Positions 18,131 to 33,872 of a stretch of DNA of 64,000 bases are shown here, one piece after another. Where the stretch lies: positions 1 to 64,000 of the IMG/VR virus record IMGVR_UViG_3300037493_002747, one strand, 5' to 3'. The first letter of the stretch is position 1, and each line of letters begins with the position of its first letter. Made by a program: the position numbers and the translations under genes. The stretch is from a virus. The notes beneath the pieces were generated by a model. The model searched no databases. It had not been told where the DNA came from and saw nothing but the letters and a program-made list of their open reading frames with translations.

Positions 18131-18143
18131 TCTTTGATATATG
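18131..18143 (+). promoter_or_regulatory. TTCTTTGATATTC-type element at the tmRNA start
   Basis: TTCTTTGATATAT immediately precedes the GGGGACG 5' end of tmRNA at 18144, as expected if this motif acts as a -10-like box with initiation about 7 bases downstream. This anchors the position of the motif relative to an RNA end. Confidence 0.55.
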
Positions 18144-18554
18144 GGGACGAGTGGTTTCGACGAGTGTTATTGAAACTGGTCGACATGCCGAGGACACAGG
18201 TGGGCCTCGTAAATCATCCTGTAAAAAAACAACTGCCAACACTTTTGGCAAGGTGATTCGTGGTTTCTTTGGAGTGGCTGCTGAGGCTACTCCGATGCTT
18301 GCCGCTGCCTAAACAGGCACACCTCCAAAACTCCGGAGTTTCTATGACAACCGGATGAGGATCAAAGAGAATAGATGACGGTCTGCAAAGACAGGCGATG
18401 CCGGGAATGAGACGCACCGGGGCGGATAGTCGAAGACATCCCTGAAAGAAGGGATAGACCAAGTCCGTGGTCGAGAAACATCGTGACGAAGCATGTGTAT
18501 GTTCAGTTGATTTATTATTCGGACAGGGGGTTCGACTCCCCCTCGTCTCCACCA
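18144..18554 (+). ncRNA. ssrA: Transfer-messenger RNA (tmRNA)
   Basis: A complete 411-base tmRNA. The 5' end GGGGACG pairs with CGTCTCC near the 3' end; the third pair is G-U, the alanine identity signal G3-U70. GGGGG-TTCGACT-CCCCC is a perfect T arm, and ACCA is encoded (18551-18554). CATGCCGAGG and GGCCTCGTAAA are the conserved stem preceding the tag region in bacterial tmRNAs. The resume codon is GCC at 18235. It would rescue stalled ribosomes and tag nascent chains, either supporting or redirecting host trans-translation. No smpB gene is visible in this window, so host SmpB is presumably used. Confidence 0.95.
18235..18312 (+). other. tmRNA tag-peptide reading frame
   Basis: Twenty-five sense codons from the resume GCC to TAA. 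The peptide begins A-N-T-F-G-K-V-I and ends P-M-L-A-A-A. It keeps the AN start and the hydrophobic LAA-type protease signal of bacterial tags but is longer than the 10-11 residues common in well-known bacteria and ends in three alanines. Confidence 0.8.
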
Positions 18555-18914: not shown

Positions 18915-18991
18915 TGCGGGGTAGAGCAGCCCGGTAGCTTATCAGGCTCATAACCTGAAGGTCGCTGGTTCAAATCCAGCCCCCGCAACCA
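18915..18991 (+). tRNA. tRNA-Met(CAT), initiator type
   Basis: A 77-base cloverleaf with TGCGGGG/CCCCGCA acceptor stem, anticodon loop CTCATAA (anticodon CAT), T arm CTGG-TTCAAAT-CCAG and encoded ACCA. The sequence follows bacterial initiator tRNA-fMet closely (AGAGCAGCCCGGTAGCTT D region, AAGGTCG variable region). The first pair is T1-A72 rather than the strong G-C of elongators, keeping a weak end as initiators do. The anticodon stem has two of the three usual consecutive G-C pairs. A phage initiator tRNA could favour phage start codons. Confidence 0.9.
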
Positions 18992-30750: not shown

Positions 30751-31534
30751 TACAACTACGTTGTTGAAGGTTGCAGATAGGGCTGCTTATCAGTATGGCC
30801 AGCTTCAGGATACTTGTACCGCAATTCAGGCGGAAGGCAATGGGTATTACTTCGATATCGTTTCGGCTACGGAAGACCCCGATGTTGAAATCCCTTGTGA
30901 TTCTGAGTATTACGACGTTGATGAGGATTTTAACGTTGGATTCATGGTTGCGTATGGCACAAGATTGTCGAATATTTTGGGTGCAATGGAGGCTCATTTC
31001 AGCCGGGATAATGGGTCGGGATTACCATTACAGGTAGGTGGTTGGGATGGTTACCTGACAGCGAAGAATAAGCGTGTAAGCTACTACTTTGCTCAGTTGT
31101 TTTTTGCAACACATGGGTTTTATATGCTTGCGAATGATGTGTTTTCGGAGAGTGTGGACCAGTTTGCTAGGTTACAGGTTACTACTGGACCTGTTTTGAC
31201 ATATACAGATGGAGTGAATTACGGAACTGGGGCAGCGGCAAACCCCGCGAATGGAACATTCTATGCTGCTACGCAATTGAAAGTGGTCGTGACAACGATG
31301 GGAGCGACACAGTTGGATGTTCGTTTATCCGTAAAGGACCTCAACAACAACTTGGCGACTATTGATGTTACGATTCCAGGAGGATCACTGCCGGGAGCAG
31401 AGATTCCTATTGGTACGACGACTGATCGGTTTCTTGATGTGACTGCGGCGATTTTCAAGCCAGCGGGTTCAACAGGGACGGTCGGAGATGATATAAATGT
31501 GATGAACTTAAAAGAGCGACAGATTGCTTTGTAA
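30737..31534 (+). CDS. Probable virion structural protein
   Basis: A 265-residue beta-rich, threonine/asparagine-rich protein just upstream of the tube genes. The C-terminal 100 residues (LKVVVTTMGATQLDVRLSVKD) look like a small beta-sandwich. Position suggests a tail or neck component; no family is recognised. Confidence 0.5.
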   Translation: MPLIDTTTLLKVADRAAYQYGQLQDTCTAIQAEGNGYYFDIVSATEDPDVEIPCDSEYYDVDEDFNVGFMVAYGTRLSNILGAMEAHFSRDNGSGLPLQVGGWDGYLTAKNKRVSYYFAQLFFATHGFYMLANDVFSESVDQFARLQVTTGPVLTYTDGVNYGTGAAANPANGTFYAATQLKVVVTTMGATQLDVRLSVKDLNNNLATIDVTIPGGSLPGAEIPIGTTTDRFLDVTAAIFKPAGSTGTVGDDINVMNLKERQIAL

Positions 31535-31545
31535 TCCCGTCATTA

Positions 31546-31558
31546 TTCCTTTATATTC
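31546..31558 (+). promoter_or_regulatory. TTCTTTGATATTC-type element
   Basis: TTCCTTTATATTC differs from the consensus at two positions. It lies 75 bp before the intron-containing tail-tube gene and would drive the tail block. Confidence 0.5.
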
Positions 31559-31633
31559 TATCATGTATAGAGTGGCAGGAGTTAGATCGGAAAGAAACCG
31601 AGATGTTGCTGAGGAACAAAGGAGGATACTAAT

Positions 31634-32972
31634 ATGGGTATGGGTTAAGATTAGCCCATCTTAAATCTTCTCTGATTGACTCGGAAGGCCAAGAGTGGGC
31701 TGACGAGGCGGAAGGCGAAAGCCACCGTGAACGACTGAGCGAGAAGACCGTCTACGGACGGATGCAACAGTCTGCTCTCCCGCAATAACTCAAGATGAAA
31801 CGGGAGAGGGAAATCCGAAGAGATTTCCCCGCCATCGAAAGATGGTCAGTAGGTCGCAAGACTGAAGTAACAGCAATAGGTATCAAGGCTACGCGAAATT
31901 TTACAAGACTGGTCCATCAACTGATCCACTGGTTGTGTTGGCAACTGGCGCAAGCGTCAATCTGGTGTTGGAGCCAATTATGTCAACGGCAGTGTGGGGT
32001 GCTGGCTGGTATAACGCGGCAGATGCTGCGCACTATGCTGACAACGCGGTGCGTTATGAGGGAAGTATTGATCTTGAACTTCAGATGGGTGCTTCAGGAA
32101 ACTTCTGGAATTTCTTGCATCAGTTCATTGTGACAAATCGGGCATATCCTAGGTCATTGGAAATCAGTCCGGATGGAGCACACGTTTACAAGTATCTGAC
32201 GACTGGTGCCTATGATGCCAACTATGACACGAAGGGTGCATGGTGTCGTTCGGCTAACTTCTCGACATCGGAAGGTTCGTTTGTTACTTGCTCTCTTGGT
32301 GTTGTGGCTATTTTCAGAACTGAGGGCGATCCAGCAGGTGGAACAAGCTATTCGAGTTACAGTTACATCAAGCAGGTCAAGGGCGTAATTGCGTCTGACT
32401 GCACGGTGTTGTCTAAAACGAATCCGTTAAACCCGTCTGGTAACAATGTTGATCCAATCCCTTACTGGAGGTCTAATGCTCAGTTGGGTGTTGGTACATA
32501 TCCGGGGCCTTTTGGAAGTGTGACACTGCCTCAGACTGGAACGGAGACGGTCGATTGGAGTATTGATGTCTCTAACAATGAGAAGATTCTGTACACTTGC
32601 TCTGGCAGTCGTCTGCCTCGTGCGGTGTTGATGGGTGCTATGAGTGTTGATGGAAACGTGACTCTCTATCACCCGAATGGTGTGTTCGACCCGATTCTTG
32701 GACCTTCTGGTACAGGAACAATTACTTCTCCGTACTCCAGAGCTGAGAATACATGGTTCCAAGTGGGTATCAACTATGGTTCGGGAACGGCATACATCGA
32801 AATTCCAGCAGCCCTTATCAGCAGTGATACATACAACATTCAGGGAGCCGATTCGATTACGAATCGTGCGTTCTCGATCAAGGGGTTGGGTGGAAGGTGC
32901 GACGGAACGACGACACTTCCTCCATGTATCATCTCTGACTACGCTGGTGCATTGCCAACTCCTCCAACCTGA
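31634..32972 (+). CDS. Tail tube-like protein, paralogue 1 (gene split by group I intron)
   Basis: The coding sequence is 31634-31645 joined to 31881-32972, giving 367 residues. Exon 1 is ATGGGTATGGGT (MGMG), 8 bases after a GGAGG site; unspliced RNA meets TAA immediately. Exon 2 continues YQGYAKFYKTG, so the spliced start MGMGYQGYAKF aligns with MALGYEGYVKI of the next gene, which confirms both splice sites. The protein is beta-rich with repeated strand patterns shared with the genes at 32985 and 35232. Stacked tube rings are the expected role. Alternative start codons inside exon 2 (for example GTG 31935) would remove this conserved beginning. Confidence 0.75.
31646..31880 (+). ncRNA. Self-splicing group I intron, 235 nt, no ORF
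   Basis: P1: exon ATGGGT (31640-31645) pairs with GCCCAT (31654-31659), with the required U-G at the 5' splice site (T31645-G31654). P6 tip GGC-GAAA-GCC (31714-31723). P7: GACTG (31733-31737) with CAGTC (31768-31772), within a typical ACGACTGAG R element. P8: CCGTC-TACG-GACGG (31748-31761). P9 stems: CTCTCCCG/CGGGAGAG (31775-31808), GGAAATC/GATTTCC and CCATC-GAAA-GATGG. The last base is G (31880). No homing endonuclease is encoded. It is removed from the tail-tube transcript by guanosine-initiated transesterification. Confidence 0.88.
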
Positions 32973-32984
32973 TATGGGGGCAAG

Positions 32985-33872
32985 ATGGCTCTTGGATATG
33001 AGGGGTACGTCAAAATTGGCGACAAGTATGCTCTTGGGACGGGAACAGCCGTTCCAAGGGCACGTACCCGCATAACTTCTCAGGGTGCTTACGGCGGCGA
33101 GATAAATACACCTGTTGATGAAATAGGGCTATGGGGTCCTAGAGTATATGACTGGGAGGTCTTTGACGGATCAGTGAATTTCGAGATTACCAAGGATATG
33201 TTCTCCTTGCTCAAGGCGTGGGTACTGGACAGGGATAGTCAGAAGGATATCCTGTTTTCGACCCGGAAGGACAATGAACAAAAGTTCGTTGATACATTCT
33301 GGAATTCCATATCGATTTCAGCCGCTGAAGGTTCCTTATTGGATGGTTCTCTTGGGTTCGTGGCTATGGATCGGGACACTTACTCCTATGGGGCGCAAGG
33401 CATAGATAGTTATCCTGGGAATGTGAAAGGCAAGGGGTTGTTATGTACGTTGGCGACGGGAATGCCAGCTCCATTAAATGTTAGTGGTGAAAATTACAAT
33501 CCGATTCCTTCATGGTATTCTAAGATTACACTGGGTGTAGAGGTATACGACTTTCTTGCTTGGACGTTGAATTTCTCACAAGACGTGGTGAAATTTTTTG
33601 CTTGTACCGGGGTACAAGGGCCACAGGCACCTGCGTATGTTGGGGTGGGGCCGATGTCGGTAACATTTGGTGGGTCTTGGATGTGGTTAGACAAAGATGC
33701 TCAAACCAGTTTCCCGGCTGATGATGTTACCGATTTGAAGGTAGAGGTGGCGGATACGAGTATGAGTTTCAAGACTTTGGAGTTACAGAGTATTTCTGAT
33801 GATGTACAATCTATGGATTCGACAACGCCGGTACAGATGGAGTATGCTATCTACGAGTTGCAGTCTACATAG
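32985..33872 (+). CDS. Tail tube-like protein, paralogue 2
   Basis: A 295-residue beta-rich protein beginning MALGYEGYVKI, matching the spliced start of the preceding gene. Shared patterns continue: a DWEVFDGSVNFEI strand pair, a central LGVEVYDFLAWTLNFSQDVV block and a PMSVTFGGSW strand equivalent to AMSVDGNVTLY in paralogue 1. It is probably the main or a minor tail tube subunit. A terminator follows it, as often after highly expressed tube genes. Confidence 0.65.
   Translation: MALGYEGYVKIGDKYALGTGTAVPRARTRITSQGAYGGEINTPVDEIGLWGPRVYDWEVFDGSVNFEITKDMFSLLKAWVLDRDSQKDILFSTRKDNEQKFVDTFWNSISISAAEGSLLDGSLGFVAMDRDTYSYGAQGIDSYPGNVKGKGLLCTLATGMPAPLNVSGENYNPIPSWYSKITLGVEVYDFLAWTLNFSQDVVKFFACTGVQGPQAPAYVGVGPMSVTFGGSWMWLDKDAQTSFPADDVTDLKVEVADTSMSFKTLELQSISDDVQSMDSTTPVQMEYAIYELQST

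Follow-up and report, generated by a model that had tools for sequence, protein, structure and literature searches.

Results

A phage tail gene split after its fourth codon

Can a phage gene be expressed when its start codon leads into a stop after four codons, and the long frame behind that stop has no start codon of its own? The question arises in virus record IMGVR_UViG_3300037493_002747, which is 75.8 kb long and of which we analyzed 64 kb (the window; coordinates are window positions, and all features given for the tail-gene locus are on the + strand). A Shine-Dalgarno sequence, AGGAGG (31620-31625), is located 8 nt ahead of a start codon at 31634, and the frame that opens there reads ATG GGT ATG GGT (ATGGGTATGGGT, 12 nt, 31634-31645) and then a TAA stop. 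The frame from 31881 to 32972 has no start codon of its own. Excising the 235 nt between the two (31646-31880) fuses them into a frame beginning MGMGYQGYAKFYKTG, with a predicted product of 367 amino acids. Judged by its sequence, the excised stretch is very probably a group I intron, small and free of any endonuclease gene, that interrupts a phage tail-tube gene, and it is predicted to splice itself. An earlier note on this DNA had drawn the feature from 31634 to 31890; an intron does lie within that span, with exact limits of 31646 and 31880, and exon 2 begins at 31881. The same note placed the start codon and ribosome-binding site directly ahead of the intron's P1 helix, which is indeed where they are in the sequence. 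Exon 1 ends in a U (U31645) and the intron in a G (G31880). The 3' end of the intron (31867-31880), which includes a conserved GTAACAG at 31867-31873, was set by the reading frame and by comparison with relatives.

The leader of about 100 nt ahead of the tail gene (window 31540-31600) contains a block, GTATAGAGTGG...AGGAGTTAG, that is common to the intronless relatives L004 and L005, so we place the leader outside the intron. A terminator scan found none beyond chance, and there were 2 promoter-like sites against 0.8 expected. Elsewhere the window has a complete tmRNA gene (18143-18554; 117 bits; tag ANTFGKVIRGFFGVAAEATPMLAAA) with a tRNA-Met gene nearby (18915-18991).

We also considered other kinds of element. 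An intein is ruled out by stop codons in every copy, a programmed frameshift was considered and dropped, and for a group II intron Rfam reports nothing and the anatomy is wrong.

Relatives carry the same gene with an empty site

By searching viral contigs with the exon 2 protein we found 15 relatives of the tail gene; a profile search found the same 15 and added one more (L164). In 12 of these 16 relatives (L004-L010, L013, L014, L016, L017 and L164) the gene reads straight through the empty site, with an N-terminus of MGMGYQG followed by F or Y in ten of them and MAMGYMG in two (L014 and L016); the proteins of L004 and L005 are identical. The other four (L011, L012, L015 and L018) have an intron at the same place. 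A first exon of only 12 nt, as the earlier note had proposed, is what the empty sites indicate. Exon 2 is under purifying selection as judged by its dN/dS ratios, which are 0.09 in comparison to L004 and 0.10 in comparison to L006.

The host gene is followed by an uninterrupted paralog (32985-33872) whose product begins MALGYEGYVKI. The N-terminus restored by splicing, MGMGYQGYAKF, resembles it as had been suggested (6 of 11 residues identical by eye), and BLASTP aligns the two proteins beyond the N-terminus, with 26% identity over 202 columns (E = 8e-12). The paralog matches PF18906 (Phage_tube_2) with an E-value of 1e-4, below that family's cut-off, and the host gene has a weak match to PHROG 290 (minor tail protein). 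No hits were found by tblastn of exon 2 against named phages. We made an AlphaFold2 model of the host protein from an alignment (A2), and its best Foldseek matches are tail tubes or major tail proteins, from SH-Ab15497, DT57C, P74-26 and T5, with E-values down to 1.4e-8. Structural comparison with tail tubes gave Z-scores of 13 to 15.7, the highest being to the P74-26 tube (237 residues aligned). The identification of the host protein as a tail tube is well supported, though from a model of modest confidence (mean pLDDT 60.3, pTM 0.68), and it agrees with the earlier note.

The intron has a covarying group I core

At the 5' splice site, P1 (31640-31659) pairs AUGGGU (31640-31645) with GCCCAU (31654-31659), ending in a U31645-G31654 wobble, and is extended by the pairs U31646-A31653 and A31647-U31652. 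The minimum-energy fold holds this extended P1, and the entire stretch folds 4.0 sd better than shuffled sequences. The U-G wobble, the U before the intron and the terminal G are present in the window and in 4 of 4 intron-bearing relatives. P10 with exon 2 consists of only two pairs in the window.

The helices of the core could be followed through an alignment of 64 introns (A1), which was built from the family of related sequences described below. Group I introns are defined by a bulged base in P7 beside an invariant G-C pair that forms the guanosine site. In the window, P7 runs from A31731-U31773, past a bulged C31732 and the guanosine-site pair G31733-C31772, to G31737-C31768. It is 100% paired in A1; its guanosine-site pair is G-C in 64 of 64 introns, and two of its pairs vary (the outer A-U becomes U-A in 4 of 64, and another A-U becomes G-C in 19 of 64), with the neighboring bulge base staying unpaired when the flanking A-U is replaced by U-A. 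P3 (31666-31672 with 31741-31747), which is pseudoknotted with P7, has 98.2% of its cells paired and two-sided changes at 7 of 7 pairs. P4 (31680-31683 with 31704-31707; 100% paired) encloses P5 (31687-31690 with 31698-31701; 88.3%), and P6 (31709-31711 with 31725-31727) is 100% paired with swaps between CG and GC. P8 (31748-31752 with 31757-31761) is 99.0% paired, counting its outer three pairs. Three further helices follow: P9 (31777-31782 with 31801-31806; 95.4%), P9.1 (31808-31815 with 31822-31829; 85.3-90.6%) and P9.2 (31832-31836 with 31841-31845; 81.3%).

Over P3 to P9.2 as a whole, 94.4% of 2723 cells in 44 pairs are paired, in a structure drawn up after inspection of the same alignment. 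Two-sided changes occur at 36 pairs and in 591 cells, compared to 174.5 in shuffled alignments (0 of 500 were as high), and the pairing signal collapses when the partner strand is shifted by 1-3 columns. The P7 and P4 motifs were within our search patterns, so our own selection accounts in part for the lack of variation in their inner pairs; GTAACA, which was a selection criterion for A1, is invariant there by selection. P3, P6, P8 and P9 played no part in selecting the sequences. The earlier note's description of a group I intron with a P1 wobble, helices P6 to P9 and a terminal G is thus confirmed by the covariation and the empty sites, and by a covariance model of the intron core (R1, from 56 sequences), which has a single match in the window, of 106 bits (E = 7e-22), the window intron being among its training rows.

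The core departs from the textbook layout, a point that, like the two-pair P10, weighs against our reading. Subgroup IA2, to which the introns of Twort and T4 belong, is defined by helices P7.1 and P7.2 between P7 and P3. These are absent here, the P7 and P3 strands being just three bases (A-A/G-Y) apart in A1, and J3/4 is long (UGAUUGA).

Could the insertion be dead, with an RNA that no longer splices, leaving the phage without the gene or with one translated from an internal start codon? A GTG at 31935 opens a frame of 345 amino acids and could serve in this way, but it has no Shine-Dalgarno sequence ahead of it. The R1 match shows the core helices in the window to be intact, and the purifying selection on exon 2 and the conservation of the N-terminal MGMGYQG in relatives also argue against this explanation, which we regard as very improbable. 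An intron that is predicted to splice is our preferred reading.

A family of introns passed over by the standard Rfam model

In BLASTN searches of phage and plasmid collections, copies of this RNA with 69-70% identity turned up in the coat gene of phage MW202674 and on a Rhodanobacter plasmid; the only other hit in these collections was a weak 31-nt match to a Bacillus phage, in exon 2. The MW202674 record (L001, 2692-4207) splits its P22-type coat gene into two CDS, separated by a hypothetical protein. P1 of the intron there would be AUGUGGAU/GUCCACAU (by eye), and predicted splicing gives ..FHVD/TQFTTQD.., which L114 has unbroken as FHVDTQFTTQD. In CRP-118 (L149, 1038-3111) the annotation likewise breaks a ribonucleotide reductase gene in two, with a family intron between the parts. 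As these public records illustrate, a family intron can cause exons to be annotated as separate CDS, leaving phage gene calls split or truncated.

To collect the family we scanned viral contigs with a two-motif pattern, which gave at least 120 stretches. A regular expression run over the collected sequences gave 135 matches, 83 of which had the S and GTAACA motifs; removal of near copies left the 64 of A1. Of the pattern-found viral loci listed, 76 of 80 in one set and 36 of 40 in another have an R1 match, as do 9 of 9 bacterial genome loci picked by a stricter three-motif pattern. These results show most pattern matches to be whole predicted cores; the loci were picked by family motifs, so the figures are not a frequency for the family. 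Six contigs (L065, L079, L028, L094, L044 and L034) each have three or four R1 matches, some of them weak, which suggests multi-intron genes. Heuristic splice-site calls across the family put the 3' end of the window intron in the wrong place, and counts based on them were discarded.

The earlier note had proposed a covariance search with group I models, and its outcome was divided. R1, the family's own model, makes the match given above, but the Rfam model RF00028 has no match in the window even at E = 10, and none in the full 75.8-kb record. RF00028 also matches none of the 27 R1 matches in 15 loci at its gathering score, and in 6 loci with 12 R1 matches it matches just one of the 12 at any score (L060; 35.3 bits, E = 1.3e-5, gathering score 50). 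Because siblings with clear covariation are missed too, we do not count the failure of RF00028 in the window against a group I assignment. The 14 GISSD subtype models perform better than RF00028. The poor capture of group I diversity by RF00028 is described in parts of PMC6125680 and PMC11878797. The RF00028 match of L060 is an independent sign of group I ancestry, and a 40-nt match at 90% identity between L060 and introns of Staphylococcus phages, some annotated as Intron_gpI, is a second sign. The element is of a known kind and its family apparently new, as judged against RF00028: a large family of compact phage group I introns that the standard Rfam model passes over. In the open-licence literature, which was the scope of our search, no paper among those listed deals with this family or with a group I intron that immediately follows the start codon of a phage gene.

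One of the closest known parallels is in Staphylococcus phage 812 and its derivative 812h1, where an excerpt of PMC6445280 describes two non-coding introns in the tail-tube gene, missing from some derivatives. Like the window intron these are group I introns without an internal endonuclease gene, and the 40-nt stretch shared with L060 is theirs. R1, however, finds the phage 812 intron only weakly (17.5 bits, E = 0.17), a start-codon position is not seen in that excerpt, and the tube protein is much shorter (orf103, 426 nt). A part of PMC3706429 also describes small group I-like introns in cluster J mycobacteriophages, in the capsid gene of LittleE and the tail gene of BAKA, one of them 265 bp long and without an endonuclease, with splicing demonstrated by RT-PCR. 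The likeness to ours is one of description, and in that part of the paper a position next to the start codon is not described.

Two registers of insertion in the tail gene

The pattern of presence and absence among close relatives suggests that the intron is a mobile passenger. Most likely it lies beside the start codon because the target sequence there is well conserved. The tail-gene introns occupy two registers. One, GGGT/TAY, is that of the window and L015, with GGGT closing exon 1 and TAY opening exon 2; in L011, L012 and L018 the exon is one base longer and exon 2 begins with ATC (GGGNT/ATC). In the intron tree each register forms one clade (support 100/93, with L048 from another gene inside it, and 100/94), and the clades are near neighbors (96/72). 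On the protein tree, no fewer than two changes per register are required. L015 and L018 have exon 2 sequences that are near-identical past about base 66, but before that point they differ. Their introns differ too, and the DNA upstream of the two genes is unrelated; exchange between phages, of the element or of what surrounds it, has therefore taken place.

These observations bear on the origin of the two registers. Two independent insertions into the tail gene, at sites one base apart, would account for the single clade formed by each register and for the combination, in L015 and L018, of near-identical exon 2 sequences with introns of different register. We consider this origin quite plausible, if a little short of probable, since the neighboring positions of the clades also fit a single insertion followed by a one-base slide of both splice sites and then recombination.

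The 235-nt intron contains no homing endonuclease gene, and in its own 75.8-kb record we found no GIY-YIG and no HNH_3 domain. A GIY-YIG domain occurs in a 371-codon frame on 2 of the 5 intron-bearing records, L015 (2665-2907) and L018 (26661-26903), which are the pair with near-identical exon 2 sequences. This frame is some 6 kb upstream of the intron, with no clear link to it.

A second insertion next to a start codon

A family intron also follows the first two codons, ATGGCT, of another gene (MANTIVYQALWENK...), which we take to be a putative capsid gene from its N-terminus. P1 of this intron is AUAUGGCU/GGUCAUAU, with the start codon inside it. The intron is present in 4 of 22 relatives of the capsid-like gene (L166-L168, which are alike over the stretches compared, and L170, which is on the same contig as L068). 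It is absent from the other 18, of which L174 has a different start and L185 and L186 have diverged too far there to show a plain empty site. L130 also has a capsid-like gene with a family intron after ATGGCT. Read without splicing, each of the nine start-proximal copies (5 tail, 4 capsid) meets a stop (TAA, TGA or TAG) as soon as a codon includes intron bases; in 5 of 5 tail copies this is codon 5.

Splicing and translation would share the start of the gene

We propose that guanosine held at the G-C site of P7 would attack after U31645, at the U-G wobble of P1. The freed exon 1 would in turn attack behind G31880, so that ATGGGTATGGGT would run on into TATCAAGGC and the frame would again encode MGMGYQGYAKF. 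The spliced junction would read GGGT/TATCAAGG in a message 235 nt shorter, which would then be translated as the 367-residue tail-tube protein. Ribosomes starting at 31634 before splicing would be halted by UAA, the first intron codon, having made only MGMG, and this early stop would therefore keep them out of the ribozyme core. Since the initiation region overlaps P1 at 31640-31659, the geometry implies that ribosome loading and P1 formation would compete. We infer this competition, as we do self-splicing, its efficiency and the mechanism of mobility.

The unusual point is that the predicted upstream coding exon is just 4 codons long, and initiation, termination and P1 therefore share about 25 nt. 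The td, nrdB and nrdD introns of phage T4 have long upstream exons, in contrast to the 4 (or 2) codons here. They are described in excerpts of PMC3073962 and PMC3984707 as having, like the introns studied here, an in-frame stop at the 5' splice site, with ribosome and ribozyme sharing the splice-site region. More generally, according to the same excerpts, an in-frame stop just past the 5' splice site is present in most group I introns of bacterial genes and keeps ribosomes out, and translation of the upstream exon can aid splicing. Upstream exons of 4 or 2 codons are natural constructs in which initiation can be told apart from translation of a long exon as an influence on group I splicing; work on this question has so far been done mainly in T4.

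The earlier note saw in this arrangement a possible translational switch. In its fullest form, the proposal would be that the intron has been domesticated as a regulator: P1 and the 30S initiation complex would form over the same 20 nt, and ribosome supply would gate splicing and so the synthesis of tail-tube protein and, in other phages, capsid protein. The 4-codon exon here, the 2-codon exon of the capsid-like gene with its start codon in P1, the stop at the first intron-containing codon in 9 of 9 copies, and the dependence of T4 splicing on translation that is reported in parts of PMC11878797 and PMC3073962 are all in keeping with it. But an early stop is typical of group I introns (according to the part of PMC3073962 cited above), 12 of 16 relatives of the tail gene and 18 of 22 of the capsid-like gene lack the intron, and many family members are located elsewhere, for example within coat and ribonucleotide reductase genes. 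Moreover, the accessibility of the Shine-Dalgarno sequence, in a nearest-neighbor estimate that leaves out pseudoknots, is higher after splicing in 4 of 5 tail genes but lower in the remaining one; with shifts in both directions, occlusion of the ribosome-binding site is no consistent theme. We therefore do not uphold the switch as an evolved function, and consider domestication unlikely. Also distinctly unlikely is the related idea of a class of start-codon introns whose P1 is built from the initiation region of the main tail-tube and capsid genes, each transcript being either initiated or spliced, so that ribosome load in the infected cell sets the timing and amount of virion protein. A regulatory role for the intron is possible but unsupported, and we retain the reading of a mobile intron at a conserved site.

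Clostridium difficile has a known group I intron at the point where translation of a gene begins: an allosteric intron, with an aptamer for c-di-GMP upstream of it, repositions the ribosome-binding site (as part of PMC3984707 describes). In the window, by contrast, the ribosome-binding site is already present ahead of the intron and owes nothing to splicing, and we found no Rfam riboswitch family at gathering score in the window, nor at scores up to E = 10 in 31500-32000.

Insertion depth in the family as a whole was gauged by the upstream open frame: 85 of 111 introns have at least 40 open codons ahead of them, compared to 64% of random positions, a difference too weak to indicate either a preference for gene starts or their avoidance. 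In L044, L071, L076 and L133 the introns are apparently about 26-30 codons into capsid-like genes. A candidate third start-proximal case is on the minus strand of L132, near 6296 (reverse-complement coordinate), where a frame of about 23 nt, MTMTTTA, behind an AGGAG-like site enters the intron at a putative splice site with a weak P1.
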